Shown: piece by piece, positions 14,180-42,763 of the stretch
How positions within the stretch are numbered: position 1 is the first letter of the stretch
How the letters are laid out: each line of letters opens with the position of its first letter
Origin: Georgenia yuyongxinii
GTDB taxonomy: Bacteria > Actinomycetota > Actinomycetes > Actinomycetales > Actinomycetaceae
Assembly: GCF_006352065.1 (NCBI RefSeq)
Contig: NZ_CP040915.1
Span: 682,001-746,000, forward strand
Direction of reading: 5' to 3'
DNA: 64,000 nucleotides
The notes under the pieces: generated by a model
What the model was told of the DNA's origin: nothing
Databases searched by the model: none
The model's input: only the letters and a program-made list of their open reading frames with translations
Made by a program: the position numbers and the translations under genes

Positions 14180-14252
14180 GGGGCTATGGCGCAGTTGGTA
14201 GCGCGTCTCGTTCGCAATGAGAAGGTCGGGGGTTCGAATCCCCCTAGCTCCA
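14180..14252 (+). tRNA. tRNA-Ala (anticodon CGC)
   Basis: This is a full cloverleaf. The acceptor stem GGGGCTA/TAGCTCC has the G3-U70 pair that identifies alanine tRNA, and the D-stem is GCGC/GCGC. The anticodon loop is TTCGCAA, the T-arm GGGGG-TTCGAAT-CCCCC, and the discriminator A is at 14252. It reads GCG codons. Its 3' half is the integration site of the element that follows. Confidence 0.97.
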
Positions 14253-14253
14253 C
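14218..14253 (+). repeat. Left attachment site (attL), 36-bp core in tRNA-Ala
   Basis: The sequence starts TGAGAAGGTCGGGGG in the anticodon arm and runs through the T-arm and acceptor stem into the first C after the discriminator. It is identical to 42728-42763. Integration here leaves the tRNA gene intact. Confidence 0.9.
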
Positions 14254-14262
14254 CCGGTGAAG

Positions 14263-14296
14263 GCCGCTGAACCGCACGAAAGTGCAGGTCAGCGGC
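14263..14296 (+). terminator. Terminator-like hairpin after tRNA-Ala, supplied by the element
   Basis: GCCGCTGA pairs with TCAGCGGC, with an inner GCAC/GTGC stem around GAAA, followed by TTTCTGCTTT. A related hairpin lies at the same place after the second att copy (42770-42809). Confidence 0.65.
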
Positions 14297-14344
14297 TTTC
14301 TGCTTTCCAGCCAGGACGCCGACATGAAGGACGGTGACCTGCGA

Positions 14345-14366
14345 ATGCCACGCTTTGTGCCACGGA
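14345..14366 (+). promoter_or_regulatory. Putative integrase arm-type site pair (left end)
   Basis: Two TGCCAC hexamers stand 12 bp apart (14346 and 14358), and the second extends to TGCCACGG. The same pair recurs twice just inside the right end of the element. Confidence 0.5.
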
Positions 14367-14431
14367 ATGGTCCGCACCCAGGGCGCGTGAACGAGCATGT
14401 TCGGCCGGTGTGCCACGCACACCTGATGGGC

Positions 14432-14686
14432 ATGAGCGAGCACATCGACTCCCCAGAGCCGCTGACCTGCACCCCGTTGTGGACCCTCGACGAGCTGTGC
14501 GCCAAGCTGCACACCTCCCCGCGCACCGTCCACGGTTGGCGACGAACCGGAACGGCACCGAAGGCGTACAAGGTCGGCAAGCACCTGATGTTCGAGGAGG
14601 CCGAGATCCGCGCCTGGCTCGAGGCCAGGCAGACGGCCAGCACGACCGCCGACCTCGCCGGCCGCGAGGCCGAGACGGGGTGGTGA
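14432..14686 (+). CDS. Excisionase-like MerR-type helix-turn-helix protein (element 1)
   Basis: This small DNA-binding protein of about 84 residues contains LWTLDELCAKLHTSPRTVHGWRRTGTAPKAYKVGKHLMFEEAEIRAWLEA, the winged-HTH pattern of actinobacterial excisionases/directionality factors. The frame is open back to 14282, but that part covers the terminator and arm sites. The ATG at 14432 is the likeliest start, without a clear ribosome site. It ends 3 bases before the integrase GTG, so the two are co-transcribed. Confidence 0.8.
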   Translation: MSEHIDSPEPLTCTPLWTLDELCAKLHTSPRTVHGWRRTGTAPKAYKVGKHLMFEEAEIRAWLEARQTASTTADLAGREAETGW

Positions 14687-16233: not shown

Positions 16234-16512
16234 ATGTCTCGCTCCGGCGGGCTGCTCCTGACCGGGCGTCGGTTGCTCGGTCCGCGTCCAGAGTGTCTTG
16301 TGAGAGCGTCGCCACCCCTCTCGCGGGGACAGCGGCGGGTCGCGGCCTCGGCGGAAAATCGTGAACGAAAACTCGCCGAAGCGGCTGCCGGTGACGATGA
16401 CGACGCGCAGGCGAAGTTCACCAGCGCCGCCGGCGGCCTACCTGCGGAAGTGCTCAGAGTGTCCATGCACTCCACCATGGCGGCGGCGCGTGCCCATTTC
16501 CGTCCCCTCTGA
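16234..16512 (+). CDS. Possible small ORF with a C-terminus conserved in element 2
   Basis: The frame encodes 92 residues. The last 31 (16417-16512), including MAAARxxFRP before the stop, align with the end of a frame at 44755-44850 in the second element (17 of 31 identical by eye). The upstream half has diverged, and element 2 carries a deletion there. The function is unknown and it may be a fossil gene. Confidence 0.3.
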   Translation: MSRSGGLLLTGRRLLGPRPECLVRASPPLSRGQRRVAASAENRERKLAEAAAGDDDDAQAKFTSAAGGLPAEVLRVSMHSTMAAARAHFRPL

Positions 16513-17190
16513 CCGCGTCCCCCCAGCGTCCCCCGGGCAAGACCACAGCGAAGGTGCGGGTCACAGCCCGTCCCCCTTCTGAGTAAGCGCGTTTGCGGCG
16601 GCTGTGAGGGATCTGTGATGGCTGGCCTCGGCCACGGTGCGTTGGTGACGGTCGAGAAGTTGGCCAGGATCGACACCGTTGTCGAAAGCTGCGCGAATTT
16701 CAGAAGGACCTTGCGCGTGCCCTCCAGCCTGGGCGCATCGCGGTTCCTTCCTCGTCCACGGGTGCGTTCGAAGAGTCCGAGGTCCACGAGGACTCGTCGG
16801 TCAGCTACACGGGCAACTCCTGTCCGCGATGGCGCGCCACGATGCGGTCGGCACGCGGCGTGTGTGCGGGATCGTGGCACGCGCTCTGATGCTGAGCCAC
16901 ACGCGGGGGAAGCTGACAGTCGCGCGCTCGGTGGTTGGCAATGTGGGTTGCACCAGCGACTTGATCAGTACGTCTAGGTCGCCGCCCCCCTCACAGGCGA
17001 CGTTCGCCCGGATCTGGCTCATCGTCGTTCGGTGCGCCGTCCGCTGTCGTCTTCGACCGGCCGCGTCCCGGCTGCGGTCGCTGCCGCTGTTGCTGCCGTC
17101 TCTCAGCCGCGGTCCCGTTTCGCCGCTTCAAGGCTGGCCACACGTCTGGCACTGAGGCTGGTCGAGTCGTCGCACCTTCATGGTGGAGGT
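16513..17190. other. Non-coding interval upstream of the relaxase, partly conserved in element 2
   Basis: No convincing gene is seen on either strand. Blocks are conserved in element 2 (44851-45378), most clearly from about 16,905 to 17,056. That is where an origin of transfer would be expected for a MobF system. A bulged hairpin lies at 16932-16955. Short frames on both strands here are not preserved between the two copies. Confidence 0.5.
16932..16955. other. Candidate oriT hairpin
   Basis: TGGT-TG-GCAA and TTGC-ACCA form an 8-bp stem with a 2-nt bulge and a 6-nt loop, 236 bp before the relaxase start. The same structure, with a changed loop, is kept in element 2 at 45261-45284. Confidence 0.35.
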
Positions 17191-20100
17191 GTGCTGGTCA
17201 CGGTCTCGATGCGGGTGATGTCGGCCGGGGATGGCTATGCGTACTTGCTGCGCTCGGTCACGACCGGCGACGGCCTGGCATCCCAGAGCTCGGCGCTGAC
17301 TCGGTACTACGCCGAGGCCGGCACACCGCCGGGGAACTGGATGGGGTCGGGCGTCGGTCAGTTCGGCGAGGGCGAGCTGCAGCCAGGCATGACCGTCACC
17401 GCGGAGCAGCTGCAGGTGCTGCTGGGCGGTGGGTGCGACCCGCTGACCGGCGCTGGTCTGGGGCGCCCCTATCATCGGTACGCGACCGTGGCGGAGCGCA
17501 TCGCGGCCCGAATCACGGGGGTCGACCGCAAGCTGCCCGACGGCGACTACGACGTCGAGGTGGCCCGGATCGAGTCCGAGGAGACCGGACGGGGGCCGCG
17601 GAGCTCGGTGGCCGCGTTTGACTTGACGTTCTCGGTGCCAAAGTCCGTCTCCGTGCTGTGGGGCGTGGCCGACTCCCGCACCCAAGAGCTGATCGTTGAC
17701 GCACACCATGCCGCCGTCGCGCAGGTGCTGGACTTCCTCGAGCGGGAGGTCGCCGCCACAAGGGTCGGCGCCGGTGGTGTCGCGCAGGTCGAGGTTCTCG
17801 GGGTGGCGGCGGTGGCGTACGACCACTGGGACTCGCGCGCCAACGACCCGCAACTGCACACCCACCTGGTGGTGGCGAATAAGGCCCGGACCGCAGCTGA
17901 CGGGAAGTGGCGCACGCTGGACTCGCGGGCGGTCCACCACGCGGTCGTGGCGTGTCGGAGTACTACAACGCGGTGCTGGCCGACCGAATAGCCGGGACGT
18001 TGGGTGTCGGATGGGAGCAGCGGGCCAGGGGGCAGGATCGCAACCCGGCGTGGGAGATCGCCGGCGTCCACGATGCGCTGATCGCCGAGTTCTCCAGCCG
18101 GTCCCGGGCCATCGACATCGTCAAGGACCGCCTTGTCGCCGAGTACGTGAGCACCCGCGGGTATTCGCCGTCGGCGGCGACGGTGGTGCGGCTGCGCGCG
18201 CAGGCGACGCTGGAGACCCGCCCCGAGAAGACGATCCACCCGCTGGCCGACCTCACGGAAGGCTGGCGCGAGCGCGCCCACATAATCCTCGGATCCGACC
18301 CGGTCGACTGGGCACGGCGCCTGACCGTCTCCGCCGACGCGCGGACGCTCACAGCCGAGCAGGTCCCGACGGAGGTGATTGCCGAGGCCGGTGCTCGGGT
18401 CGTTGCAGCGGTGGGGGAGAAGCGCTCGACCTGGAAGCACTGGAACCTGTGGGCCGAGGCCTCCCGGCAGACGATGGGCTGGCGGTTCACCACGGTCGAG
18501 GACCGCGAGGCCGTGGTCGCGATGGTCACCGACGCCGCAACTCAGCAGTCCCTGCAGCTGACCCAACCGGAGCTCGCTCCGACTCCGGTGCTGTGGCAGC
18601 GCCCAGACGGGACCAGCATGTTCCGTCCCCGGCACGGGGCGTACTTCACCTCCGAGGACCTCCTTGCCGCCGAGGCTCGGCTGCTCGACCGCGCCGATGA
18701 CCGCACGGCACCGCGGCTGCCCGCCGCTGTGGTCGCGCGGGCAGCCGCCGCAGGACACATTGGCACCATGCTCACCGCCGGGCAGGCCGGGGCGCTTGAA
18801 GCTGTGGCGACGTCCGGGCGCCGGGTGGACGTCCTCGTCGGCCCCGCAGGAGCCGGCAAGACCACCGCGATGCGCGCTCTCCTGGCCGCCTGGACGGCCC
18901 GCCACGGCACCAGCTCGGTGATCGGGCTCGCGCCATCTGCCGCCGCGGCCGCGGTGCTGGCGGGCGACCTGGGTATCGGTTGTGACAACACGGCCAAGTG
19001 GCTGTTCGAGCACGCCCGTGGTCGCGCCACGTTCCGGGCCGGGCAGCTCGTCATCGTCGACGAGGCCACCCTGGCCAGCACCCGCACCCTGGACTGCATC
19101 ACCGCCCTGGCCCAAGCCGCCGGGGCCAAGGTGGTGCTGGTGGGGGACTGGGCACAGCTGCAGTCCGTCGACGCCGGCGGTGCCTTCGACCTCCTCGTCC
19201 ACGCGCGCGGTGACGACGTCCCCGAACTTGGAGAGGTGCACCGCTTCACCCACGACTGGGAGAAGCGCGCGTCGCTGGGGCTGCGTCGCGGCGAGGTCGA
19301 CGTGATCGGCACCTACGCGGCCCACGACCGGCTGCCGGAGGGCACCACCGCCCAGATGATCGACGCCGCCTACGAAGCATGGCGCACCGACCTGGCCGCA
19401 GGGCGCAGCAGCATCCTGGTCACGGACTCGGCCGAGTCGGTACGCCGGCTCAATGAGCGGGCACGCGCCGAGCGCATCCAGACCGGCGAAACGTCGCCCC
19501 GCCGCGACGTCGCCCTCGACGATGACGCGCGGGCCTCGGCCGGCGACCTCGTCATCACCCGCCGCAACAACCGCATACTGCGTACCGGCCGCACGGGATG
19601 GGGCCGCAACGGTGACCGGTGGAAGATCGTAGACGTGCGCCGCGACGGATCGATCCAAGTGCGCCGCGCCGGGCGGCGGCTCGGAGCCAGCGTTGTCCTG
19701 CCTGCCGACTACGTCGCCGAGCACGTCGACCTCGGCTACGCCGTCACCGCCCACCGCGCCCAGGGACTCACCGTGGACACCTCGCACGTCGTCGTCGCCG
19801 GGTCCACCACGCGGGAGAACCGGTACGTGGCCATGACCCGCGGCCGGGACGCCAACATCGCCTACGTCGCCCTCGACAAGCCCGACGACTCCCACGCCAC
19901 CCCGCAGCCCGCCGACGTCACGGCACAGACAGTGCTGTACGGAGTGCTCAAGCACTCCGGCATTGAACTGTCCGCACACCAGACCATCAGCGCCGAGCAC
20001 GACCGGTGGGCCGGCATCGCGCAGCTCGCGGCCGAGTACGACCTCATCGCAGCCAGTGTCGAACGCGATCGGTGGCGGGAGCTCGTGGCCAATGCGCTCA

Positions 20101-20726
20101 CCGGCGTGGGCCGCATGAGCGCGGCCGAGGCGGAGAGCGCGATCACCTCCGACGGGTTCGGCGCGCTCGTGGCAGAGTTGCGCCGAGCCGATGCCAACCA
20201 CCACGACCTGCGGGTGCTTGTGTCCCAGGTGGTTGCCGACCGCAGCCTGATCGACGCCGAGGACATCACCGCGGTGCTGTCCCACCGGGTGGCCAAGGCC
20301 GCCGCAAAGCCGAACGGCACGCACGTGCCCGACCTCATCGCCGGTCTCGTCCCCGAAGTTCGCGGGCCCGTGCCCGACGACGTGCGCACAGCACTCGACG
20401 AACGCCGCGACTCGATCGAAGCGCGCGCCCGAGGGCTCGCCCAGACCGCCGTCCGCGAGCGCGCCGCTTGGGTGCTGCGGATCGGCGAACCACCGCTCGA
20501 CGGCGTGGCAAGGCAGCGGTGGCTGCACGACCTGACGGTCATCGCGGCATACCGGAACCGGTACAGCATCACGAGCCGCGACCCGCTCGGTCCGTCGGGC
20601 ACGTCCTTGGCCCAGCGCCGCGATGCCGACTTCGCTGCATCTGCGCTTCGAAGTGCGCGCGCCGTCTCGGGCGTGAGCACGCCAAGAAGCACCGGCCCGC
20701 TCGGTGCTGCTATTGCACTCGGATAA
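17191..20726 (+). pseudogene. MobF (TrwC/TraA-like) relaxase-helicase with one frameshift
   Basis: Read through the shift, this is a relaxase-helicase of about 1,178 residues that would nick oriT and unwind DNA for conjugative mobilisation. The N-terminus SMRVMSAGDGYAYLL, the RYY tyrosines, and DPQLHTHLVVAN with the HxH metal site (17857-17865) define the TrwC relaxase. The helicase half has GPAGAGKTTA (about 18,842), LVIVDEATL and YAVTAHRAQGLTVD. At 17951/17952 one base is missing: frame 1 ends ...HHAVVA and the next frame resumes VSEYYNAVLADR. The GTG at 17191 follows GGAGG too closely, so the start is uncertain. A sequencing error is possible; as written the protein is split. Confidence 0.85.
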
Positions 20727-21089: not shown

Positions 21090-23402
21090 TCAGCGCCGAC
21101 TCCTCCCCTCGGGGCTTGAGGTCGTCACCCGCACGGGAGGGAGGGGGCCGTCGTATCGCACGACGGTCACCCGGGCGAGCTGGCCGCTACATCCCTGGGT
21201 CAGTGCCGACGTCCCGACATCGACGGTCACCGCATTTGGGTTCCCGTGGACGCAAGTCGGCCCGTCTTCGAGCCACTCCGGCTGGAACCATGCTCCCGTC
21301 GCGAGCTGGACCACGCCAGGCCGGACGGCCTCGGTCACCACGGCTCCCGCCAGACACGCGCCTTGGGGGCTCGCGACCCTGACCACGTTGCCGTCCGTGA
21401 TGCCGCGGAGTCGGGCGTCTGCGGGATGCATCCGCAGCGGTTCACGCCCCTGCACCTTGGACCGCTGACTCACAGCCCCGACGTCCAATTGGCTGTGCAG
21501 GCGGGTCGGTGGGTTATTGGCCACGAGCTGCAGGAAGCCCTCTCTAACTTCGCGGTCGTCCACCCGTTGGCTCGGTTCTGACCAGTACGCGTGCCCAGGA
21601 CACGAGGGGACCCCGGCGGCAGCGATCTGCTGCGAGAACAGTTCGATCTTGCCCGACGGTGTCGTCAGCGCGTTGCGCTCGGGATCGGCACGGAACCGCG
21701 CGAACCTTGGCTCGTAGTCTTGTCCCGGGGGGATGTCCACACCGCCCAGTTGCCAGAACTCTTCGCTCGTCGGGGCCTGGAAGCCGGTCGCGGTGAAGTT
21801 CTCGAGGAGGTTCCGGAGGAGGTGGTCCACCCACTCCTCGCCGGTCCTGCCCTCGGTGAACTCGTCGCGGAGGCCGAGACGCTCCGACAATCCCGCGAAG
21901 ATGTCGTAGTCGTCGCGTGCCTGCCCGTACGGGGCGATCAGCTTCTCCATCGCGACGACTCTCGAGTCGAGCTTGCCGGCGCTGAAGTCACGGCGCTCGA
22001 GCGTCGTCGTCGCGGGCAGGACGATGTCCGCGCGGCGGGCCGTCGCTGTCCAGTACTGCTCGTGGACTATGACGGTCTCGGGCACCTCGAACGCGCGCAT
22101 GAGGCGAAACAGATCCTGGTGGTGGTGGAACGGGTTCCCGCCCACCCAGTAGACCAACCTGATGTCCGGGTAGGTGCGGGTCTCACCGCGGAACCGGTAG
22201 GTCCCGCCAGGATCGAGCAGCATGTCCGCGATCCGTGCGACGGGTATCCGCGCGTCCACCGCGTTGGGCGGCTGGGGGAGCGAGGGCACTTTGACGGCGC
22301 CCGGCCGTTCGCCGCTGTTGGCCATCGAGCCGAGCGGGTAGGACACGCCGCACCCTGGCTCGCCGATCTGGCCCAGGAGGGCCGCGAGCGTGAGGGCCGC
22401 CCACAGGGGCTGCTCCCCGTTCTCGGCGCGCTGCAGGGAGTGGGTGAGATTGATCAGCGTCCTCGAGGATGCGGCGCGGCGCGCGAGCTCCTCGATTGTC
22501 TGCGGTGGGACCCCGCAAAGGTTGGCCGCCCACGCCGGGGTCTTGGCAACGCCGTCGGCGGTGCCGAGGATGTATGCAATTACCTTCTCGGCGCCCACGG
22601 TGTAGTGCGACAGGAAGTGCTCGTCGTGCAGACCTTCGACGACGAGCACGTAGCACATCGCGAGGATCATCGGGACGTCTCCGAACGGGCGCATCGATAC
22701 CCACTGCGCCGGCACGTTCGCGGGCGCGTCGTCGCGGATCGGGCTGATCGACACGATCGTGCCACCCCGTTCATGAAGCGCCTGGAGGTGCTCGCCCGCG
22801 CGGTGCCGGGCGATCCCTCCGGAGGAGACGAACATGTTCTTGCGGGGGAGCCCACCGAACGCCAGGAGCAGCTCGGTGTTCTCCGATATCTCCTGCCAGC
22901 TGTGCCACGAGTAGGGATCGCGGCCGGCCTCCCCGAGGACCAGCGGCCAGAAGGTCTCCGCGCAGCCCGCGCTGTAGGTCCCGATCGCGGACACGTGCCC
23001 ACCGATGACGTTGAGGAAGCGGTGCACCTGGCTCTGGGCATGGTGGAACCTTCCCGCCGAGCCCCAGCCGTAGGACTTCCCGTAGATCGCGCTGTTGCCG
23101 TGCTCGCCGCGCACGCGCGCCAGCTCCTGGGCGGCCAGGTCCAGCGCCTGCTGCCACGAGACCTCGACGAAGTCCTCGTCACTGCGATCCCGGCGCCCTG
23201 GCCCTTCCTCCAACCAGCTGCGCCGGATCATCGGCCGGCCCACGCGCGTCGCGTGGTGGGCGGCTTCCGGGATGTTGCCGAGCAGCGGTGACGGGTCCGG
23301 GTCCACCGGATGCGGGGCCACCTCCAGGTCGCCACCCCGCAGGCGCCCGGTGAAGGCGCCCCAGTGCGAATGATGGACTCGCGGATCCGTGTCGCTGGAC
23401 AT
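21090..23402 (-). CDS. Cytoplasmic molybdopterin oxidoreductase of the DMSO/TMAO/biotin-sulfoxide reductase family
   Basis: This 770-residue protein starts with SHWGAF and ends in a dinucleotide-binding domain, as in BisC/TorZ/DMSO reductases. The order is an N-terminal SHWGAFTGRLRGGDL, ATRVGRPMIRRSWLE, YGWGSAGRFHHAQSQVHRFLN, then TYSAGCAE with the Ser expected to ligate Mo, VYWVGGNPFHHHQDL, and a C-terminal NPPTRLHSQLD. There is no 4Fe-4S Cys cluster motif and no Tat signal, so it should act in the cytosol on an S-oxide or N-oxide. It is the last gene of the long minus-strand operon, 67 bp after the MFS gene. Its link to the rest of the pathway is unclear. Confidence 0.85.
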   Translation of the reverse strand: MSSDTDPRVHHSHWGAFTGRLRGGDLEVAPHPVDPDPSPLLGNIPEAAHHATRVGRPMIRRSWLEEGPGRRDRSDEDFVEVSWQQALDLAAQELARVRGEHGNSAIYGKSYGWGSAGRFHHAQSQVHRFLNVIGGHVSAIGTYSAGCAETFWPLVLGEAGRDPYSWHSWQEISENTELLLAFGGLPRKNMFVSSGGIARHRAGEHLQALHERGGTIVSISPIRDDAPANVPAQWVSMRPFGDVPMILAMCYVLVVEGLHDEHFLSHYTVGAEKVIAYILGTADGVAKTPAWAANLCGVPPQTIEELARRAASSRTLINLTHSLQRAENGEQPLWAALTLAALLGQIGEPGCGVSYPLGSMANSGERPGAVKVPSLPQPPNAVDARIPVARIADMLLDPGGTYRFRGETRTYPDIRLVYWVGGNPFHHHQDLFRLMRAFEVPETVIVHEQYWTATARRADIVLPATTTLERRDFSAGKLDSRVVAMEKLIAPYGQARDDYDIFAGLSERLGLRDEFTEGRTGEEWVDHLLRNLLENFTATGFQAPTSEEFWQLGGVDIPPGQDYEPRFARFRADPERNALTTPSGKIELFSQQIAAAGVPSCPGHAYWSEPSQRVDDREVREGFLQLVANNPPTRLHSQLDVGAVSQRSKVQGREPLRMHPADARLRGITDGNVVRVASPQGACLAGAVVTEAVRPGVVQLATGAWFQPEWLEDGPTCVHGNPNAVTVDVGTSALTQGCSGQLARVTVVRYDGPLPPVRVTTSSPEGRSRR

Positions 23403-25457: not shown

Positions 25458-25879
25458 GCCTGGCCTCCGTCAGCACCGTCCACGTCGGCAAGAGTCGCGG
25501 TGAGGACCCTCATCGCCGTGAGCGCGGCGGGAAATCCGCAGTAGACGGCGGCATGGACCACCACCTCACCGAGTTCGCTCGGCTCGAGACCATTACGGAC
25601 TCCTCCCCGAACGTGTACTGCAAGCTCCTCGTGACGACCAAGCGCGACCAGCATGGCTACCGTGACCAGGCTGCGCTCCCTGCGGGGCAGTTCATCACGT
25701 GCCCACACCTCGCCCCAGGCGAAGCTGCTGACCATTTCTTGCAGATCCGACTCCCAGGGCTGGACCGCGCCGGCGAACGCGCGGTCGACGTGGTCCTCGC
25801 CGAGCACCTGCGTGCGGACGGTGAGCCCCCGATCGTGTGAGTCGGCCCGAGCCTGCGCCACCGGCGGCCGGGCGGTCAT
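25454..25879 (-). CDS. Carboxymuconolactone decarboxylase family (PcaC-like) protein
   Basis: This 141-residue all-helical protein has LVTVAMLVALGRHEELAVHVRGGVRNG and VVVHAAVYCGFPAALTAM, the PcaC pattern. It lacks the CxxC pair of AhpD-type peroxidases. PcaC decarboxylates 4-carboxymuconolactone, but no other protocatechuate genes are present. A decarboxylase or isomerase step on a pathway acid or lactone is more likely. It overlaps its neighbours by 4 bases on both sides. Confidence 0.8.
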   Translation of the reverse strand: MTARPPVAQARADSHDRGLTVRTQVLGEDHVDRAFAGAVQPWESDLQEMVSSFAWGEVWARDELPRRERSLVTVAMLVALGRHEELAVHVRGGVRNGLEPSELGEVVVHAAVYCGFPAALTAMRVLTATLADVDGADGGQA

Positions 25880-30584: not shown

Positions 30585-30632
30585 CAGCTAATTCACCTCC
30601 TGGCGTTGGGCAGTGCGGAGCGGTCCGTCGGA

Positions 30633-32347: not shown

Positions 32348-33856
32348 GTGAGTGTGGGAGAGGTCACCACGATGCGGTCTGATCTGGCAGAACTACGGAT
32401 GTTCGTCGGTGGTCGATGGGAGGAAGCGGCCACCGGGGACCGCTTCGCCACGGTCAACCCGTTCACCGGCACCGCATGGGCCACGGCTCCGGTCGCCGGC
32501 CAGGGCGACGTCGACCGGGCGGTAGAGGCAGCACAGGCAGCCCTCGCCGGCCCTTGGGGAACGATGTCCGCCTCCGACCGCGGGCGCCTGGTCTATCGCC
32601 TGGCGGACCTGATCGAGCAGAACGTGGACCGGCTCGCCGAGCTCGAGACGAAGGACAACGGCAAGGTCCTGCGGGAGACCCGGGGCCAGGTGGCCAGCCT
32701 CGTGGCCACCTACCGGTACTTCGCGGGCGCGGCGGACAAGATCCAGGGAAATACCATCCCAGCTCCCCAGACGAACTTCTTCACCTTCACCCAACGCGTC
32801 CCGATCGGGGTCGTCGCAGCGATCCTCCCCTGGAACAGCCCGCTGTACCTGTTGGCCAACAAGCTCGCCCCTGCCCTCGCGGCAGGTTGCACCTTCATCG
32901 CCAAGCCTGCCGAGCAAACGCCGGCGACAACGTTGGAGATCGCCCGGCTGGCTCAGGAGGCCGGTATCCCCGACGGGGTCTTCAACGTCATCACGGGCCT
33001 CGGGGACACCGGAGCAAAGCTCGCGTCGCACCCCGGCGTGGACAAGGTGACGTTCACCGGCTCGGCGACCACCGGCACCAAGGTCATGCGGTCCGCCGCC
33101 GAGAACATCACGGCCGTCACGATGGAGCTGGGCGGGAAGTCTCCCAACATCGTCTTCGACGACGCCGAGCTCGAACGCACCCTCAACGGTGTCGTTGCCG
33201 GCATCTACGCGGCAACCGGGCAGACCTGCGTGGCGGGTAGCCGCCTGCTGGTCCAGAGCGGCGTCCACGACGAGGTCGTCGAGCGCATCGCCCAGCGGGC
33301 CTGCGAGATACACCTCGGCGACCCCCTCGACCCAGCTACCGAGATGGGACCCATCGCCTTCCCCGAGCAGCTCGAGAAGGTCGAGCACTATGTCGCGCTC
33401 GGTCTCGCCGAGGGCGGGACCCTGGTCGCCGGCGGCCGCCGCCCCGACGACGAGCGGCTCCAGCATGGGTACTTCTTCGAGCCGACCGTCCTGACGAACA
33501 TCACGAACTCGATGCGCATCGCCCGCGAGGAGATCTTCGGCCCTGTGCTCTCGGTCATCCCATTCGACACCGAGGAGGAGGCGGTGGAGATCGCCAACGA
33601 CTCCGAGTACGGCCTCGCAGCCGGGATCTGGACCGAGAGCGTCCACCGGGCGCACCGCATGGCTCGCGCGCTGCGCGCCGGGACGATCTGGGTCAACGCC
33701 TATCGAACCCTCGCCTACAACGTCCCGTACGGCGGCTTCGGGCTGAGCGGCGTGGGGCGCGAGAACGGACTGGACGGCCTCGACGAGTACCTGAGCACGA
33801 AGTCCGTCTGGATCGAGACCTCCGGCGGCACACGCGATCCCTTCCAGATCGGCTAG
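32348..33856 (+). CDS. NAD(P)-dependent aldehyde dehydrogenase
   Basis: This 502-residue enzyme of the ALDH superfamily oxidises an aldehyde to an acid. PWNSPLYLLANKLAPALAAG and KPAEQTPATT bind the cofactor, the catalytic Glu is in TMELGGKSPN and the Cys in GQTCVAGSRL. EEIFGPVLSV and NAYRTLAYNVPYGGFGLSGVGRENG complete the family pattern. Two starts are good: GTG 32348 (GGAGG 8 bases upstream) and ATG 32372 (GGGAGAGG, same spacing). It is first in the plus-strand unit; with the following alcohol dehydrogenase it may oxidise an alcohol precursor to the acid. Confidence 0.92.
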   Translation: MSVGEVTTMRSDLAELRMFVGGRWEEAATGDRFATVNPFTGTAWATAPVAGQGDVDRAVEAAQAALAGPWGTMSASDRGRLVYRLADLIEQNVDRLAELETKDNGKVLRETRGQVASLVATYRYFAGAADKIQGNTIPAPQTNFFTFTQRVPIGVVAAILPWNSPLYLLANKLAPALAAGCTFIAKPAEQTPATTLEIARLAQEAGIPDGVFNVITGLGDTGAKLASHPGVDKVTFTGSATTGTKVMRSAAENITAVTMELGGKSPNIVFDDAELERTLNGVVAGIYAATGQTCVAGSRLLVQSGVHDEVVERIAQRACEIHLGDPLDPATEMGPIAFPEQLEKVEHYVALGLAEGGTLVAGGRRPDDERLQHGYFFEPTVLTNITNSMRIAREEIFGPVLSVIPFDTEEEAVEIANDSEYGLAAGIWTESVHRAHRMARALRAGTIWVNAYRTLAYNVPYGGFGLSGVGRENGLDGLDEYLSTKSVWIETSGGTRDPFQIG

Positions 33857-33886: not shown

Positions 33887-35026
33887 ATGAAGCGAACCGA
33901 CTACCCGTCCGTCAGCCGTGCAGCCGTACTGGAAGCGCACCGCGAGCCGCTGGTCATCAAGGAGTTGCCCGTCCCGCAGGAGCTGCCCCACGGCGCCTTG
34001 CTCGTCAAGATCGAAGAGTCCACGATCTGTGGTTCGGACGTCCACCTCTGGGACGGTGTGCTGGCCGGCAGCCAGCCGATCGACCTTCCGGTAGTTCCCG
34101 GCCACGAGATGGTCGGGCGCATCGTCGCCTTCGGTGACGGCGCTGAGCACGACAGCTTCGGCACACCGCTGGCGCTCGACGACCGCATCGTCTTCTCGCA
34201 CAGCTCGTGCGGGGAGTGCCGGGCCTGCACCCTGCTCCACCAGCCGACGCTGTGCGAACGCCGTGACTATTACATGTTCTCGAACGTCAGCCGGAGTCCC
34301 TACCTGCTCGGCGGCTTCTCGGAGTACTGCTACGTCTTCCCGAACTCGGGGAGGGTGAAGGTCCCGGACAACGTCAAGACCTCGTGGGCGTCCGCCGCCA
34401 GCTGCGCCTTCCGGACCGTCATCCACACCTTCGACCTGCTCGGCCGCATCGAGCCCTGGGAGACCGTCGTCATCCAGGGTGCCGGCCCTCTCGGGCTCTT
34501 TGCCACGGCGCTCGCCAGTCAGAGCGGTGCCGGCCAGGTCATCACCATCGGTGCACCCGACGAGCGCCTCGAGATCGCCAAGTCTTACGGCGCCACCGAG
34601 ACGGTCTCGGTCGACACGCACGCTACCGAGGAGGCCCGCGTCGACGCAGTGCGACGCCTACTCGGCGGTAAGGGCTCGGACATCGTTATGGAGTTCTCCG
34701 GAGCCCGAACGGCGGTCACCGAGGGACTCAAGATGATCCGGCCGGGCGCCCGGTACACGGTGACCGGTCAGGTCGGCACCGGCACCGTGGAGATTGCGCC
34801 CGGCCTCATCACCCGGCAGCAGGTCAACATCATCGGCTCATGGTCCGGGCACATCGCCGAGTACTGGAAGGCGATGCAGTTCATGAGTCAGACCCAGGGG
34901 CGCTTCGACTTCGACAAGATCACCTCGAAGCGGTACACGCTCGACCAGGCCAACGACGCGCTCATGAGCATGCACGCCCGCGCGGAGATCAAGCCGGTCG
35001 TCGTTCCCCACGCCGAGTTCGTCTGA
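33887..35026 (+). CDS. Zinc-dependent medium-chain alcohol dehydrogenase
   Basis: This 379-residue MDR enzyme has the catalytic zinc residues Cys in STICGSDVH and His in VPGHEMVG. The structural zinc Cys are in SSCGECRACTLLHQPTLCE, and the Rossmann motif is VVIQGAGPLGLFATA. It starts 30 bp after the aldehyde dehydrogenase with AGGAA upstream of the ATG. The likely role is oxidation of an alcohol or polyol feeding the aldehyde dehydrogenase; the substrate is unknown. A perfect hairpin follows. Confidence 0.92.
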   Translation: MKRTDYPSVSRAAVLEAHREPLVIKELPVPQELPHGALLVKIEESTICGSDVHLWDGVLAGSQPIDLPVVPGHEMVGRIVAFGDGAEHDSFGTPLALDDRIVFSHSSCGECRACTLLHQPTLCERRDYYMFSNVSRSPYLLGGFSEYCYVFPNSGRVKVPDNVKTSWASAASCAFRTVIHTFDLLGRIEPWETVVIQGAGPLGLFATALASQSGAGQVITIGAPDERLEIAKSYGATETVSVDTHATEEARVDAVRRLLGGKGSDIVMEFSGARTAVTEGLKMIRPGARYTVTGQVGTGTVEIAPGLITRQQVNIIGSWSGHIAEYWKAMQFMSQTQGRFDFDKITSKRYTLDQANDALMSMHARAEIKPVVVPHAEFV

Positions 35027-35127: not shown

Positions 35128-35940
35128 GTGAGTACGTCAACCGATCTCGTCACCACCTCCCTGTCACCAGACAACGTCGCCACCGTCGTGCTGAACCGTC
35201 CGGACGTGAACAACGCCTACAACACCGCACTGGTCGAGCAACTCGAGGCGGCCTTCGAGTGGTGCGCGACGAACCCCGAGGTCCGGGTCGTGTGGATCCG
35301 CGGCGCCGGCAGGCACTTCCAGGCCGGCGCCGACCTGGCGTGGCTTCAGGAGGTCCGGGCCCAGAGCGAGGAAGACAACCTCGCCGTGTCCATGCGGACC
35401 ACCAACCTCCTGCGCTCGCTCAACGAGTTCCCGAAGCCCACCGTGGCGCTGGTCCACGGTGGGTGCTTCGGGGGCGGCGTCGGGATCATCGCCGCCTGCG
35501 ACGTCGTCGTCGCCGAGAGCACGGCACAGTTCGGGATCACCGAATCGCGCTGGGGAATGGTCGGAGCCCCCCTGGTCCGGCAGGTTGCCGGTCGTATCGG
35601 TCCTGCGCGCCTGCGCCGGTACGCCATGTCGTCGGAGCGGTTCGACGCCGCGCGTGCCTTTGGCATGGGCCTCGTCGACGAGCTCACCGAACCGGGCGGG
35701 CTCGACGAGGGCGCCCAGCGGATCACCGACGAGATCCTCAGCTCCGGGCCGGAGGCCATCGCGGCGACCAAACGCAGCATCCTCCGCATCACTGGACAGC
35801 TGATCGACGACGACGAGGCTCTCGAGATGTCCCAAGAGCATGCCGCGCGCCGGCTGAGCGCGGAGGCCGGGGCGGGCCTCCAGAGCTACCTCGACCGCAC
35901 CCCGCCACCCTGGAAGCCCGCAACCGCGAGCGTCCGATGA
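35128..35940 (+). CDS. Enoyl-CoA hydratase/isomerase family protein
   Basis: This 270-residue crotonase-fold protein has VATVVLNRPDVNNAYNTAL, GAGRHFQAGADLAWLQ for the first oxyanion-hole segment, and HGGCFGGGVGIIAACDVVVAE for the second, followed by FGITESRWGMV. The acid/base positions cannot be assigned with certainty. It may hydrate or isomerise an unsaturated CoA ester such as itaconyl-CoA. GTG 35128 has GGAG 7 bases upstream and is preferred to ATG 35092. Its stop overlaps the next ATG. Confidence 0.88.
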   Translation: MSTSTDLVTTSLSPDNVATVVLNRPDVNNAYNTALVEQLEAAFEWCATNPEVRVVWIRGAGRHFQAGADLAWLQEVRAQSEEDNLAVSMRTTNLLRSLNEFPKPTVALVHGGCFGGGVGIIAACDVVVAESTAQFGITESRWGMVGAPLVRQVAGRIGPARLRRYAMSSERFDAARAFGMGLVDELTEPGGLDEGAQRITDEILSSGPEAIAATKRSILRITGQLIDDDEALEMSQEHAARRLSAEAGAGLQSYLDRTPPPWKPATASVR

Positions 35941-36827
35941 GCCCACACGCCATGGACGCCCCGGTCAACTCGCTCGACGTCGACGCGCTCCGATCCTGGA
36001 TGGGCCGGACCGTGGTGACGACTGACGTCCTCACCACGGGTGCTGTCGAGCGGTTTAACGCGACGACTCGGGGCAGTGTGACCTCCAGCGGTGCGGGCTC
36101 GGTCAACCCGCTTCTGGTCTGGGCCCTCGCGCCAGAGGCAGTGGCGCACCACGAGCTGGGCGAGGACGGCCACCCTCTGCGAGGGGAGTTCTTGCCTCCG
36201 GTGCCCCTGCCGCGCCGGATGTGGGCCGCCAGTTCACTTTCGTTCTACCGGGCGCTCGCCGTGGGGGAGCCAGCTCGGACGGCCTCGACGGTGCGCGACG
36301 TGACCCTCAAGCACGGGTCCACCGGTCCGTTGGTCTTCGTGACGGTCGAGCGCGCAACGACCAGCGCCGGCGAGCTTGCAGTTCACGAGGAGCAGACGAT
36401 CGTCTACCGCGACACTCCGGCAGCGGCACGCCCCGCTGGCGCCGTCGCCACTGGCGGCACTCCGCTGGCGGACACGTCGGACGTGTTGGACACCGTCGTA
36501 CCCGATCCTGTGCTGCTCATGCGGTACTCGGCACTAACCTTCAACTCGCACCGGATCCACTACGACCGGCCGTACGCCATGCAAACCGAGGGCTACCCGG
36601 GACTGGTCGTGCACGGTCCCCTGATCGCGACCCTCCTGCTCGACCGCTACATGGCGCACCATCCAGGGACGGACATCAGCACGTTCTCGTTCCGGGCACG
36701 CAAGCCGCTGTTCGACACGGCTCCCTTCACCATTCGCGGGCGGACCGACATCCGCGGGAACCTGAGCCTGAGCGCCGTCGACGCCTGCGGGGAGGTCTGC
36801 ATGACGGCGGAGGTCACGCCCCGATGA
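35937..36827 (+). CDS. Hot-dog-fold hydratase of the HTD2/mesaconyl-C4-CoA hydratase type
   Basis: This 296-residue protein has two hot-dog modules. The N-terminal FAS1-like part contains PLPRRMWAASSLSFYRAL. The C-terminal MaoC-like part has TFNSHRIHYDRPYAMQTEGYPGLVVHGPLIATLL with the catalytic Asp/His. This layout is that of mesaconyl-C4-CoA hydratase (Meh) of the 3-hydroxypropionate bicycle and of itaconyl-CoA hydratases, which form citramalyl-CoA. It overlaps the hydratase before it and the lyase after it by 4 bases each, supporting consecutive steps. Confidence 0.85.
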   Translation: MSPHAMDAPVNSLDVDALRSWMGRTVVTTDVLTTGAVERFNATTRGSVTSSGAGSVNPLLVWALAPEAVAHHELGEDGHPLRGEFLPPVPLPRRMWAASSLSFYRALAVGEPARTASTVRDVTLKHGSTGPLVFVTVERATTSAGELAVHEEQTIVYRDTPAAARPAGAVATGGTPLADTSDVLDTVVPDPVLLMRYSALTFNSHRIHYDRPYAMQTEGYPGLVVHGPLIATLLLDRYMAHHPGTDISTFSFRARKPLFDTAPFTIRGRTDIRGNLSLSAVDACGEVCMTAEVTPR

Positions 36828-37729
36828 GCGCCGCGAACCGCTCCCGCGGCCTGCATGCCTGGCTCTTCGTGCCCGCCGACGACGAGCGCAAGGTGAGTCG
36901 GATGGGCACGCGGGGCGCCAACGTCGTCATCCTCGACCTGGAGGATGCGGTGCCCGAGGGGCGGAAGGCTGCCGCCCGTCGCTTGGCGGCCGAGGCCATC
37001 GCAGGGCGCACGGGCGGCGGCCCTGCGCTTGCCGTCCGGATCAATGCCACGGACATGGCCGAGGCCGACCTCGACGCCACTGTTGCGGAGGGACTCGACT
37101 TCGTGATCTGGCCCCACTGCGAGTCGGGCGCTGCCCTTGTCGAGCTGGACGAGCAACTCACGCGCCTTGAGCGCAGCCGCGGCCTGCCGCCGCGCGCCGT
37201 CGGCGTCGTGGCGCTGATCGAGAGCCCGAGAGGCGTGCTCGAACTGACTGAGATCGCTGAGGCACCTCGGGTCGTCGGTCTCGCGCTCGGCTCGGAGGAC
37301 CTCGCGCTCGAGCTCGGCGTGGCGGCGACCCGACAGAGCCTGGACCTCCCGGTGCGCCAGCTCGCGCTCGTCGCTGCCGCCGCCGGGCACATGGGCATCG
37401 GCCTCGACACATCGTTGGGCAACTACGTCGACCTGGACGCGCTGACCGCATCTGCTAAGAGGTCCCGAGACGCCGGGCTCACCGGTGCGTTGTGCATCCA
37501 CCCACGGCAGGTCGGCGTCATCAACGCCGTCTTCGGCGAGGGTGACATCGAATGGGCACGGGCAGTGATAGCAGCATGGGACGCGAACGGGCGCCAGGGG
37601 GTGACCTCGGCGGACGGGAGGATGGTCGACCGCCCGGTGGCCGAACGAGCGGCCGCCATCCTGGCCGCCGCCGCCGCGGTCGGGCCCGACGCGGCGCTGG
37701 TTGCATCTCGCGACGGGGGAGTGTCGTGA
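36824..37729 (+). CDS. CitE-like lyase, probable citramalyl-CoA lyase
   Basis: This 301-residue TIM-barrel enzyme of the HpcH/HpaI-CitE family has LFVPADDERKVSRMGTRGANVVILDLEDAVPEGRK, AVRINATD, LIESPRGVLELTEIA, LGSEDLALELG and a C-terminal ALCIHPRQVGVINAVF. Glu and Asp in the IES and LGSEDL segments bind Mg. With the hydratase before it, the predicted reaction is citramalyl-CoA to acetyl-CoA plus pyruvate; malyl-CoA-type substrates cannot be excluded. It is joined to both neighbours by 4-bp overlaps. Confidence 0.87.
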   Translation: MSAANRSRGLHAWLFVPADDERKVSRMGTRGANVVILDLEDAVPEGRKAAARRLAAEAIAGRTGGGPALAVRINATDMAEADLDATVAEGLDFVIWPHCESGAALVELDEQLTRLERSRGLPPRAVGVVALIESPRGVLELTEIAEAPRVVGLALGSEDLALELGVAATRQSLDLPVRQLALVAAAAGHMGIGLDTSLGNYVDLDALTASAKRSRDAGLTGALCIHPRQVGVINAVFGEGDIEWARAVIAAWDANGRQGVTSADGRMVDRPVAERAAAILAAAAAVGPDAALVASRDGGVS

Positions 37730-38922
37730 CCGCGAAAGGCGTTACTGAGACCGTAGCCGGCTCCGGCGGCCCGCTGGCCGGGTTGCGCATCGTCGAGGTG
37801 TCGGCGTTCGTGGCCGCTCCGCTGGCGGGTCTCACGCTCGCGCAACTGGGCGCCGAAGTGATTCGGATCGACCCGCTGGACGGGCAGATGGACTTCACAC
37901 GGTGGCCGGTGACCGACTCTGGCGAGAGCCTGTTCTGGTCGGGACTCAACAAGGGCAAAAAGTCTGTCACCCTCGATCTCCGCTCACCCGAGGGGCGCAA
38001 GCGCGCTCTGCGCCTCATGACCGCCCCTGGCGACGGCACCGGCATCGTCCTCACCAATCTCTCGGTCGACGGCTGGATGTCCTACGAGACACTCCGTGCC
38101 CTCCGTGAGGACGTCATCCTCGTCCACCTCACCGGGAACGCCGACGGTTCCAATGCCGTCGACTACACGGTCAACCCTGCGAGCGGATTCGCGACCGCGA
38201 CCGGCGAGGGCGAGGTCCCGGTGAACCACCTCTTGCCGGCGTGGGACGTCACGTCCGGCCTGCACTTGGCCACCGCGATCCTCGCGGCGGAGCGGGTACG
38301 CAAAGAGTCCGGCCAGGGGCAGCAGGTGACCGTGGCGCTGTCCGACGTCATGCTCTCGGTGGTGTCTGCCCTCGGCTACATCGCCGACGTGCAGGTCAAC
38401 GGCGTGTCGCGCCCGGCTCAGGGGAACTATCTATACGGCGGCTTCGGCAAGGACTTCGTCACCGACGACGGTCGCCGAATCATGGTCGTTGCCATCACCG
38501 ATCGCCAGTGGCGCAACCTGACGACTGCGACGGGGCTGGCAGCACAGATCGACGCCGTCGCCGGCGTGATCGGCGCAGACCTGTCTGACGAAGGCGGACG
38601 CTACGAAGCCCGGGAGATCATCGCGGCCGTGGTGGGTCGGTGGGTGGCGGCACGGTCGTACGCCGAGGTCGCGACAGCTCTCGACGGATCCGGTGTGCTG
38701 TGGGGCACCTACCGGACGTTCGGCGAACTGGTGCGCGACGACCCACGGTGCAGCCTTGAGAATCCCTTGTTCACGGAAGTCGCTCACCCCGGCATCGGAA
38801 CCATCCTCACTCCCCGCAGCCCTTTGAGGTTCAGCAGGACATCGGTCCCGCCGGCGGCGCCCTCACCGGTGCTGGGCCAGCACACGGCCGAGGTCGAAGG
38901 CGCTCTGCGAGGGCAGTCCTGA
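37726..38922 (+). CDS. mct: CaiB/BaiF CoA-transferase 2, resembling mesaconyl-CoA C1-C4 CoA-transferase (Mct)
   Basis: This 398-residue class III CoA-transferase is clearly different from CoA-transferase 1. Motifs are LAGLRIVEVSAFVAAPLAGLTLAQLGAEVIR, NAVDYTVNPASGFA, then PVNHLLPAWDVTSGLHLA with the probable catalytic Asp, and GNYLYGGFGKDFVT. I recognise the last three as typical of 2-methylfumaryl-CoA isomerase (Mct), which moves CoA within mesaconate from C1 to C4. It is coupled by a GTGA overlap to the lyase, so Meh-, lyase- and Mct-type enzymes are contiguous. The specific name is inferred from motifs. Confidence 0.72.
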   Translation: MTAKGVTETVAGSGGPLAGLRIVEVSAFVAAPLAGLTLAQLGAEVIRIDPLDGQMDFTRWPVTDSGESLFWSGLNKGKKSVTLDLRSPEGRKRALRLMTAPGDGTGIVLTNLSVDGWMSYETLRALREDVILVHLTGNADGSNAVDYTVNPASGFATATGEGEVPVNHLLPAWDVTSGLHLATAILAAERVRKESGQGQQVTVALSDVMLSVVSALGYIADVQVNGVSRPAQGNYLYGGFGKDFVTDDGRRIMVVAITDRQWRNLTTATGLAAQIDAVAGVIGADLSDEGGRYEAREIIAAVVGRWVAARSYAEVATALDGSGVLWGTYRTFGELVRDDPRCSLENPLFTEVAHPGIGTILTPRSPLRFSRTSVPPAAPSPVLGQHTAEVEGALRGQS

Positions 38923-42000: not shown

Positions 42001-42494
42001 TCATCGACACCCTCGACTACCTCTACGGCCTGCAGGTCGATCACGAGCACGTCGTCGAGATCGAGCGGGGCGTGCAGCTGCACATCGGGCTCGAGGCGGT
42101 GGGGGACCCGGACGAGCACGGCATGCGCACCGTCATGACCACGCTGCACGGACAGCTGCGGCCGGTCTACGTGCGCGACCGCAGCGTCGAGCCCACCACG
42201 CTCTCCGCCGAGAAGGCCGACCCCGCCGCCCCCGGGCACATCGCCGCCCCCTACGCCGGCGCCGTTACCATGCGCGTGAATGCCGGTGACGCCGTCGAGC
42301 GCGGCCAGCAGGTGGCCACGATCGAGGCCATGAAGATGGAGGCCGCCATCACCGCCCCGGCAGCCGGCAGGGTGCAACGCCTCGCCATTGCCGCCACGCA
42401 GAGCGTCGAGGCCGGTGACCTCCTGTGCGTCCTCGACATCGCAGCGACATCGCCAGCACCGGCCTCACCGGCGGGAACGATGACCGTAGCCTGA
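39039..42494 (+). CDS. pyc: Pyruvate carboxylase
   Basis: This 1,151-residue biotin enzyme converts pyruvate, bicarbonate and ATP to oxaloacetate. The biotin carboxylase domain occupies about residues 1-450 (GGGGRGM near 163, FIEMNPRIQVEHT). The carboxyltransferase domain follows (about 530-805; TDTTFRDAHQSLLATR, FDALNDVGQM, HTHDTAG). The BCCP domain is at the C-terminus, with biotinyl Lys1099 in AMKMEA. The ATG has GAGGAGG just upstream. It lies inside the element, 116 bp after mct. There it would turn pyruvate from citramalyl-CoA cleavage into an anaplerotic C4 acid. Confidence 0.96.
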   Translation: MFRKILVSNRGEIAIRAFRAAVELGARTVAVFPYEDRGSLHRQKADEAYEIGTRGQPVAAYLDVAEIVRVAVDSGAEAIYPGYGFLSENPAFARAASAAGLTFIGPSADVLERTGHKVAAKEQAVAAGVPVLRSTPASADLDELVSATEELDFPVFAKAVAGGGGRGMRRIETREEVRQALEHAMREAAAAFGDPTMFLEEAVLRPRHIEVQILADHHGDVVHLFTRDCSLQRRHQKVVEIAPAPNLDDAVRERLHADAVAFARAVGYVNAGTVEFLVETEGPRAGQHVFIEMNPRIQVEHTVTEEVTDADLVQAQMRIAAGESLAQLGLRQETIRLRGAALQCRITTEDPAADFRPDTGRITTYRSPGGAGIRIDGGTVHTGTQVSPYFDSMLTKLTCRGRDFPTAVARSRRALAEFRIRGVATNIPFLQAVLDEPALVSGDLSTRFIEERPELLTSRKPQDRATKVLAWLADVTVNAPHGPRPAVASPREKLPATVDLHTEAPAGSRQRLADLGPAGFARELRAQRALAVTDTTFRDAHQSLLATRVRTRDLVAIAPHVARLTPQLLSVEAWGGATYDVALRFLAEDPWERLAALREAMPNIALQMLLRGRNTVGYTPYPAQVTGAFVEEAAATGIDIFRIFDALNDVGQMRPAIDAVLGTGTTVAEVALCYTGNLLDPAERLYTLDYYLRLAEDIVKAGAHVLAIKDMAGLLRPGAATVLVRALRERFDLPVHLHTHDTAGGQLATLLAASAAGVDAVDVASAPLAGTTSQPAASALVAALAHTERDTGLSLVAVGDLEPYWEAVRQAYRPFESGLPAPTGRVYAHEIPGGQLSNLRQQASALGLAEDFELIEEMYAAADRVLGRIPKVTPSSKVVGDLALQLAATRADPRHFAENPGDYDVPDSVIRFMAGELGELPGGWPEPFRTKVLAGRQPDLTERPLTPEQEAVIAVPGTERRATLNHLLFPKPACTFAENQDRYGDVSVIDTLDYLYGLQVDHEHVVEIERGVQLHIGLEAVGDPDEHGMRTVMTTLHGQLRPVYVRDRSVEPTTLSAEKADPAAPGHIAAPYAGAVTMRVNAGDAVERGQQVATIEAMKMEAAITAPAAGRVQRLAIAATQSVEAGDLLCVLDIAATSPAPASPAGTMTVA

Positions 42495-42522
42495 GGGGAA
42501 GCCTCTGTCGGGGGACGAGTTC

Positions 42523-42571
42523 GTGCCACGGTTGTGCCACGGATTGGGCGCGTGCCACGGTTCTGCCACGG
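42523..42571 (+). promoter_or_regulatory. Putative integrase arm-type sites (right end)
   Basis: Two pairs of TGCCACGG lie 11 bp apart within each pair (42524/42535 and 42553/42564), 157-204 bp inside the right att copy. They match the pair near the left end. Confidence 0.5.
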
Positions 42572-42727
42572 GTTGAGCGAGCGTGTATGCGTGCGATTGC
42601 GCGTCATCGCGAAGGTCTGCAAAACTCATCCCAGAGCCTCGAGATCCCCGGGATTCTGGGGACTTCTGGGAGCGCGGTAAGACTGATCAGCCGTCTTGGC
42701 TGGCCGGGGCGGGAGATTCTCCGACCG

Positions 42728-42763
42728 TGAGAAGGTCGGGGGTTCGAATCCCCCTAGCTCCAC
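42728..42763 (+). repeat. Right attachment site (attR of element 1, also left junction of element 2)
   Basis: An identical 36-bp copy of 14218-14253, containing only the 3' half of tRNA-Ala. The bases to its left are element sequence, not tRNA. The bases to its right resemble the left end of element 1, with a related hairpin (42770-42809) and then xis-int. Confidence 0.9.

Follow-up and report, generated by a model that had tools for sequence, protein, structure and literature searches.

A probable unit of a tandem integrative-element array in a tRNA-Ala gene of Georgenia yuyongxinii, with candidate cargo for C5-dicarboxylate breakdown

How did a block of catabolic-looking genes come to lie between two copies of a tRNA 3' end on the chromosome of Georgenia yuyongxinii, and could it still leave? 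The locus lies in a stretch of 64,000 nucleotides (contig NZ_CP040915.1, genome positions 682001-746000; the genome is a single 4.17-Mb contig), which we call the window and whose coordinates are used unless stated otherwise. An earlier note, made from the letters of this DNA, had described the 28.5-kb unit at 14218-42763 as a mobilizable element carrying a complete acid-catabolism island; the unit is named E1 here, and the next element to its right E2. The explanation that we prefer, and regard as rather probable, is that E1 belongs, as one unit among several, to a tandem array of related integrative elements in a tRNA-Ala(CGC) gene and that its cargo would serve the breakdown of C5 dicarboxylates. 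In the terms of known systems, it is probably an integrative element of the MobF type whose transfer gene is damaged, its cargo probably representing a variant of the C5-dicarboxylate pathway.

The att-framed unit, its array and its empty site

The 36-bp core within the tRNA 3' end and the core at the right limit of E1 are identical, an exact 36-mer, and frame xis, int, a MobF relaxase region and 16 cargo genes; in this the earlier note was accurate as to coordinates, att copies and gene count. With a lambda-type integrase, short direct repeats are expected at the element ends. The motif TGCCACGS has 18 matches in the window, a total that is in itself unremarkable (shuffle mean 11.8; 6 of 100 shuffles reach 18), and seven of them, all on the plus strand, are clustered at the ends of E1, three within 73 bases on the left and four within 48 bases on the right; we infer that these clusters are arm sites bound by the integrase. 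Taken together, the exact 36-mer and the clustering at both ends argue that the framing of E1 is more than chance. E1 is framed by matching att repeats and encodes its own integrase: int1 is full length with integrase domains, and its HLLRS and later HYIE catalytic motifs can be read by eye. The full-length gene rules out classing E1 as a cis-mobilizable element (CIME; att kept, integrase lost), a label that would fit better the stretch E3 outside the window, in which right-end-like sequence is present and an integrase match absent. At a threshold of E 1e-60 the integrase is found in five of the nine genus genomes examined, own genome included; G004 holds a shorter fragment resembling int2, and matches beyond the genus are remote, reaching no more than 34% identity in the 96 phage records and 33% in two plasmid records. 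The plasmids and phages that carry the nearest relaxases and integrases are actinobacterial.

The right core of E1 is followed, inside the window, by a second xis and integrase, which makes E1 one unit of a tandem array. The earlier description as a 28.5-kb element in tRNA-Ala thus holds as regards an att-framed, integrase-encoding unit and has to be amended in that the unit is not solitary, its right core being the start of E2. The integrases int1 and int2 are 68-71% identical. A third core copy with one mismatch lies just outside the window at coordinate 66249 (genome 748249), a partial core at 78319 (genome 760319) and a degenerate core with six mismatches at 115967 (genome 797967). From the last of these, 327 bp can be aligned with the left end of E1 at 85.6% identity, and no integrase match lies nearby. 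The right end of E1, about 220 bp, recurs before other att copies, at 66249 (86.7%) and 78319 (74.4%) in the own genome, at three places in G004 (83.6%, 78.0% and 73.4%) and once in G005 (72.2%). To the right of the tRNA, the sequence shared with the congeners G001 and G006 begins again only near 152477, so that some 138 kb separate the tRNA from the shared right chromosome, with some pieces (near 118.6-119.6 kb) also occurring in G003-G005. The G+C content falls from 74.8% in the left flank and 74.2% in the right chromosome to 69.6% in the E1 backbone, 68.8% in the E1 cargo and 71.3% in E2 within the window, and the lower values of the array are consistent with a foreign origin.

The congeners provide what the earlier note had asked for, a comparison with an empty site, for a sibling of E1 and not for E1 itself. 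The tRNA locus, queried with the upstream flank, is matched in all nine genus genomes. Between G001 and G006 the left flanks are 85.6% and the right flanks 92.7% identical, and the two matches have exactly 35 bp of the core in common; G006 carries 11.4 kb between its 36-bp core and a second core with one mismatch, comprising xis, an integrase, a relaxase, a transposase and a Na/H antiporter. The sibling in G006 is a precise insertion, and G001, in which the integrase is not found at the above threshold, is a natural empty site. In G002 a start of E1 type (tRNA, xis and int, 85.6% over 2104 bp) is followed by a relaxase, ABC transporters and an isocitrate-dehydrogenase-family gene, with no second core within the 40 kb fetched. 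In G008 a start of E2 type sits directly on the tRNA (90.9% over 1832 bp), the remainder differing from E2. Such a position would be expected with E1 as an interposed piece, and the simplest reading is that E1 was inserted between the tRNA and E2, at the core of the tRNA. E1 would then have arrived after E2, by integration at the tRNA-proximal core, and recombination of its two 36-bp cores by Int and Xis would release a 28.5-kb circle and leave the tRNA restored. Two points count against this reconstruction: among the relatives none was found that allows E1 itself to be compared present and absent, the proof of an empty site coming from the sibling, and no match to the E1 right end beyond the core was found at the second core of G006 or at the degenerate own copy at 115967. 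Further att-like tRNA-Ala fragments occur in G008 (contigs C21, C24 and C31), in G007 (C1, with an 82-bp perfect match, and C9) and in G004 (C34), some of them on other contigs, which suggests arrays or secondary sites across the genus.

Just 3' of the tRNA, an inverted repeat read by eye (GCCGCTGA...TCAGCGGC, within 14254-14303) is followed by a T-rich run. It may provide a new terminator for the tRNA; sequences resembling it come after several other att copies. E2 itself is att-framed and spans 42764-64000 and onward to about 66284. Ten of its genes were scanned, among them two LPG synthase-family genes, a GH15/trehalase-like gene, an amino-acid permease, a response regulator, a kinase, a PrsW protease and an FtsH-like gene, a set that looks like membrane-stress cargo. 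In a defence library searched with the ten proteins, the IetA and TRIP13 models matched the FtsH-type AAA protein and two weak matches fell on the response regulator; no defence system in E2 is claimed from them.

Relaxase and transfer capacity

The relaxase gene of E1 is split between two frames near 17950-17990, a break that the earlier note missed, while its siblings are uninterrupted, with 1181 codons in G006 and 1159 codons in G002. The frame change could be a broken gene or a sequencing error alike. Ahead of it, the spacer between int and relaxase (16404-17055) is a possible oriT region. A relaxase can work in trans. Elsewhere in the genome a second TrwC with an open frame of 970 codons lies at 982 kb and an integrase close by at 978 kb; this pair (978-983 kb) is possibly a second MobF element able to supply a relaxase in trans. 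Pfam scans of the E1 genes found no type IV secretion system (T4SS) family. The one coupling-protein family searched, TraG-D_C (PF12696), was not found in the genome, an absence that says little since the same family was missed in most of the 14 control genomes and found in four. We would therefore keep the word mobilizable for the ancestry of E1: with the relaxase split in E1 and only a relaxase fragment in E2, present mobilizability, as claimed in the earlier note, is doubtful. Transfer would formerly have used the MobF relaxase with the mating pore of a helper, and E1 can now probably still be excised, its mobilization, if any, depending on help in trans.

At E 1e-40 the relaxase was matched in 409 plasmid records, all below 60% identity and the best at 57%. 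The one record opened, the Paenarthrobacter plasmid pYJND-3 (25.7 kb), holds the closest plasmid relaxase found, with 57% identity over the C-terminal part; an amidase, an aminotransferase, an FAD oxidoreductase and a tyrosine recombinase are encoded on the same plasmid. Like E1, pYJND-3 combines a MobF relaxase, metabolic genes and a tyrosine recombinase; unlike E1, it is a plasmid record (marked linear) and is not integrated in a tRNA. On plasmids predicted in Mycolicibacterium, 63 of 67 relaxase genes are reported to be of the MobF type (PMC8190616).

How far the present state of E1 departs from its former one is the point on which the most serious alternative turns, namely that E1 is a decayed island, a former integrative mobilizable element now fixed in the chromosome, its cargo kept by selection, with no transfer and little or no excision. 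This alternative is compatible with the anatomy that we propose and differs from it on present activity, and we rate it only a little short of an even chance. It draws on the split relaxase with its intact siblings, on the relaxase fragment of E2 and the E3 stretch devoid of an integrase match, and on the missing TraG-D_C protein; against it stand int1, xis, both cores and the arm-like repeats, all of which look intact, the possibility that the frame change is a sequencing error or that the TrwC at 982 kb acts in trans, and the small weight of the PF12696 result. The resemblance to integrative mobilizable elements (IMEs), as described in the review PMC5704250, lies in an own integrase and excisionase, a target at the 3' end of a tRNA gene, a relaxase unaccompanied by genes for a mating pore, and stacking at one att site with decayed neighbours, such accretion being treated in the same review; E1 differs from those IMEs in its MobF-type relaxase, whose frame is broken, and in 16 genes of catabolic-looking cargo. 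A tRNA 3'-end target with int and xis is also typical of actinomycete integrative and conjugative elements (AICEs), which an FtsK/TraB-type protein transfers in double-stranded form, and tandem AICEs in Frankia and Streptomyces resemble E1 and E2 in that a single tRNA gene holds two elements in a row, with independent and joint excision reported for the Frankia pair (PMC3218068). AICEs are described there as carrying rep genes and tra genes of the FtsK type; the E1 genes scanned showed neither an FtsK/SpoIIIE nor a replication-initiator family and include a TrwC relaxase instead, and we consider it very improbable that E1 is an AICE. Less credible still is a chance repeat, in which an unrelated piece of a tRNA gene would pass for the second core and the cargo would be ordinary chromosome. 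A diverged core match does exist elsewhere, at 2.58 Mb (2 mismatches in 30), and such a coincidence would have to account for the exact 36-mer, the arm repeats, the matched right ends, the tandem int genes, the empty site in a congener, the low G+C content and a lyase for which the other family genomes searched gave no match; we think it can hardly be true.

Cargo genes and their candidate substrate

Of the 22 genes listed for E1, the 16 that form the cargo lie between 21090 and 42494 in two divergent blocks, minus then plus (Table 1). From their family relationships we favour, as somewhat likely, a function in the uptake and CoA-dependent cleavage of an itaconate- or mesaconate-type C5 dicarboxylate to pyruvate and acetyl-CoA. 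The TRAP transporter would import the acid and the CaiB CoA transferase activate it; the hydratase, the RipC/CitE-type lyase and the mesaconyl-CoA-isomerase-type protein would take the C5 acid through citramalyl-CoA to pyruvate and acetyl-CoA, and pyruvate carboxylase would then turn the pyruvate into oxaloacetate. The MaoC-type hydratase aligns with the solved itaconyl-CoA hydratase 8khg (201 bits) and retains the HRIHYD and GYPGLVVHGPLIATL segments. The isomerase-type protein (TIGR04253, 440 bits; PDB 7xkg, 434 bits, and 8apq, 410 bits) is related to 2-methylfumaryl-CoA isomerase (Mct) and lies below the equivalog cut-off of 725 bits. For the CaiB protein the best structures are PDB 4ed9 (251 bits) and then SUGCT 9br6/9br7 (249 bits).

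Table 1. Features of E1 and of the start of E2, in window coordinates (gene limits come from family searches; start positions are approximate)
Feature	Coordinates	Strand	Remarks
tRNA-Ala (CGC), integration target	14179..14255	+	ARAGORN
36-bp att core, left copy	14218..14253	+	within tRNA 3' end
Left-end TGCCACGS repeats, 3 copies	14346..14418	+	putative integrase arm sites; left ends aligned across elements
xis-like, HTH_17 / phrog_66 excisionase family	14426..14686	+	upstream start at 14282 possible
int1, tyrosine integrase, 459 aa	14690..16069	+	Pfam PF00589, PF14659, PF22022
int-relaxase spacer, candidate oriT region	16404..17055	+	75.6% identical to E2 spacer
TrwC/MobF relaxase, N-terminal part	17032..17991	+	profile 1-191
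TrwC/MobF relaxase, C-terminal part and helicase	17907..20726	+	other frame; profile 189-284
Molybdopterin S/N-oxide reductase	21090..23402	-	bisC/TorA/DMSO reductase family, below cut-off
MFS transporter	23470..24603	-
GntR-UTRA regulator	24675..25457	-
Carboxymuconolactone decarboxylase-family (CMD) protein	25454..25879	-
CaiB-family CoA transferase	25876..27006	-	candidate acid-activating step
MmgE/PrpD protein	27087..28526	-	best PDB iminodisuccinate epimerase, then cis-aconitate decarboxylase
TRAP transporter	28574..31835	-	DctM 28574-29959, DctQ 30069-30584, DctP 30633-31835
Aldehyde dehydrogenase (ALDH)	32399..33856	+
Zinc alcohol dehydrogenase (ADH)	33887..35026	+
Enoyl-CoA hydratase (crotonase, ECH)	35128..35940	+
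Itaconyl-CoA hydratase-like, MaoC type	35952..36827	+	PDB 8khg, 201 bits
HpcH/HpaI-CitE family lyase	36824..37729	+	RipC/Ccl candidate; RipC 141 bits, citE 139 bits
2-methylfumaryl(mesaconyl)-CoA isomerase family CoA transferase	37726..38922	+
Pyruvate carboxylase, 1151 aa	39039..42494	+
Right-end TGCCACGG repeats, 4 copies	42524..42571	+	inside ~220-bp right end
36-bp att core, right copy	42728..42763	+	also left end of E2
E2 xis2 and int2	42924..44554	+	xis2 42924-43193, int2 43187-44554
E2 relaxase remnant	45384..45779	+	matches C-terminal residues 793-924 only

The set also has counterparts in the literature. Published itaconate clusters hold ich, ict, ccl, an MmgE/PrpD isomerase and an acyl-CoA dehydrogenase together (PMC12290011), and the itaconate uptake system of P. 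aeruginosa is the TRAP transporter IctPQM (PMC12599236). As in the itaconate/methylsuccinate cluster of pseudomonads and Cupriavidus with IctPQM, E1 has homologues of the hydratase, CoA transferase, lyase, MmgE/PrpD protein and TRAP transporter, and at family level only the acyl-CoA dehydrogenase of the published set is wanting. E1 departs from that cluster in this absence, in an extra isomerase-type CoA transferase, pyruvate carboxylase, ALDH, ADH and crotonase, and in two divergent gene blocks with a GntR regulator (PMC12290011). A further parallel is the itaconate operon of Serratia entomophila 626 on a predicted island, like E1 a species-specific gain, there of an itaconate lyase pathway, and read as horizontal transfer; it was argued from G+C content and absence in relatives, and no integrase-att unit is described for the operon in the available portion of the source (PMC9615192). 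Among the matches listed, with subscription journals mostly outside the coverage, neither E1 nor its combination of cargo was found described.

C5-type genes recur as neighbours in other genomes. The gene order was followed at 35 loci (L075-L109), one further hydratase match of the order survey being without a locus. The hydratase and the isomerase-type gene adjoin in 17 of the 35, 15 of these 17 coming from one genus, and in 8 of 14 wider stretches, chosen by hand from the same loci, the isomerase-type gene and/or the lyase lies within about 10 kb of the hydratase. At six further hydratase loci, all in metagenome-assembled genomes (39-44% identity), a CaiB-type gene follows in four. Plasmid records with an isomerase-type match number 24; in one of the three opened, from Paraburkholderia, the hydratase, lyase and isomerase-type genes lie within about 9 kb. 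In six genomes of another family (L081-L086) the hydratase match contains one TAG; either the alignment extends too far upstream there, or the gene is truly interrupted.

Many observations weigh against so specific an assignment. The hydratase has no NCBIfam match at all. The top NCBIfam match of the lyase, RipC_Ccl with 141 bits, remains far from the cut-off of 375 and is nearly tied with citE at 139 bits, and the best NCBIfam score of the CaiB protein is 318 against a cut-off of 750. Scores below cut-off, as for these two and for the isomerase-type protein, indicate relatedness and are no proof of identity, and the substrates are uncertain. In the Pfam and NCBIfam scans none of the 16 cargo genes fell into an acyl-CoA dehydrogenase family, and ALDH, ADH, ECH, CMD, the MFS transporter and the molybdenum reductase are not accounted for by the C5 route. 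Among the 14 wider stretches, four have the hydratase without another cargo homologue, two a CaiB-type gene only, and none the whole set; the six metagenomic loci have no lyase match at E 1e-8, some of these stretches being short, and the other two plasmids opened carry the isomerase-type gene alone. That the acid catabolism is complete, as the earlier note has it, is unproven. The methylsuccinate pathway as such was rejected for want of an acyl-CoA dehydrogenase in the cargo. In the MmgE/PrpD protein no tyrosine stands four residues before the conserved FHP histidine, an observation by eye that is weak as no methylsuccinate isomerase was aligned; the acid-binding residues that this protein has in common with cis-aconitate decarboxylase largely occur in iminodisuccinate epimerase too and do not single out the decarboxylase.

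The same observations leave room for a cargo directed to another substrate, a longer or cyclic acid, or an alcohol oxidized through ADH and ALDH, the trio of hydratase, lyase and isomerase-type protein then forming the last part of the route or acting on other CoA esters. ALDH, ADH, the crotonase and the CMD-family protein would find a place in such a route; moreover, the nearest solved structure of the MmgE/PrpD protein is iminodisuccinate epimerase, no diagnostic protein reaches its NCBIfam cut-off, and the lyase scores do not separate citE from RipC. The recurrence of C5-type genes as neighbours elsewhere and the likeness of the TRAP, CaiB and MmgE set to published itaconate clusters speak for a C5 acid instead, and we judge a different substrate possible and rather improbable.

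Origin of the cargo and exchange of modules in the genus

Relatives' whole genomes were searched for the tRNA locus, lyase, hydratase, integrase and PYC_OADA, and the other cargo genes were compared with fetched stretches only. At E 1e-40 the lyase is found in one of 213 genomes of the family, the own genome, at most 11 first-look candidates per genome being scored among the rows shown. At E 1e-25 a hydratase match turns up in 29 of the 396 genomes sampled from the order, own included, with 46% as the best identity, and none of the remaining 28 belongs to the family of the window; in a sample of the phylum the count is 7 of 396, own included. The order and phylum surveys are samples with at most six candidates per genome in the rows shown, and 20 of the 367 non-matching order genomes are named; neither survey gives a count of the family members that it contains. 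For lyase and hydratase, the outcomes that the earlier note had named as refuting (cargo at this locus in close relatives lacking xis/int or the second att copy, or vertically conserved cargo together with the 36-bp repeat) were not observed.

Pyruvate carboxylase has a separate history within the genus, and this too weighs against a single origin of the cargo. Its protein is 88% identical to a copy in G002 and 82% to one in G004, both copies having other neighbours than that of E1, and the DNA match of these congeners to E1 (18.2 and 20 kb compared with 180 kb of the own genome) is limited to this gene. A PYC_OADA match is present in five of the nine genus genomes and the whole domain in three; in the own genome the E1 gene is the only full-length copy found, two other matches covering residues 3-448 and 2-477. 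With relatives of pyruvate carboxylase inside the genus and the lyase and hydratase without match in the rest of the family sampled, the cargo looks like a mosaic, pyruvate carboxylase being drawn from the genus pool and hydratase and lyase from outside the family. The earlier idea that the cargo travels as a unit is weakened in so far as it implies one old unit.

It is tempting to extend this picture to the genus, at a more tentative level. A genus-wide family of MobF elements in tRNA-Ala might exchange nutrient and stress modules at one slot, with stacked elements sharing relaxases in trans as individual copies decay, a proposal that seems to us conceivable and still less probable than its contrary. 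E1 would then contribute a C5-dicarboxylate module with anaplerotic pyruvate carboxylase, E2 a membrane-stress module, the element of G002 an ABC-transporter and isocitrate-dehydrogenase-family module and that of G006 a Na/H antiporter.

If the preferred explanation of E1 is true, a single site-specific insertion would bring its host a food source in one step, with uptake, activation, cleavage and anaplerosis, and its cargo would represent a proposed variant of the itaconate/C5-dicarboxylate pathway. The genus would likewise offer empty, singly occupied and stacked tRNA sites in which the assembly and decay of such modules may be followed.

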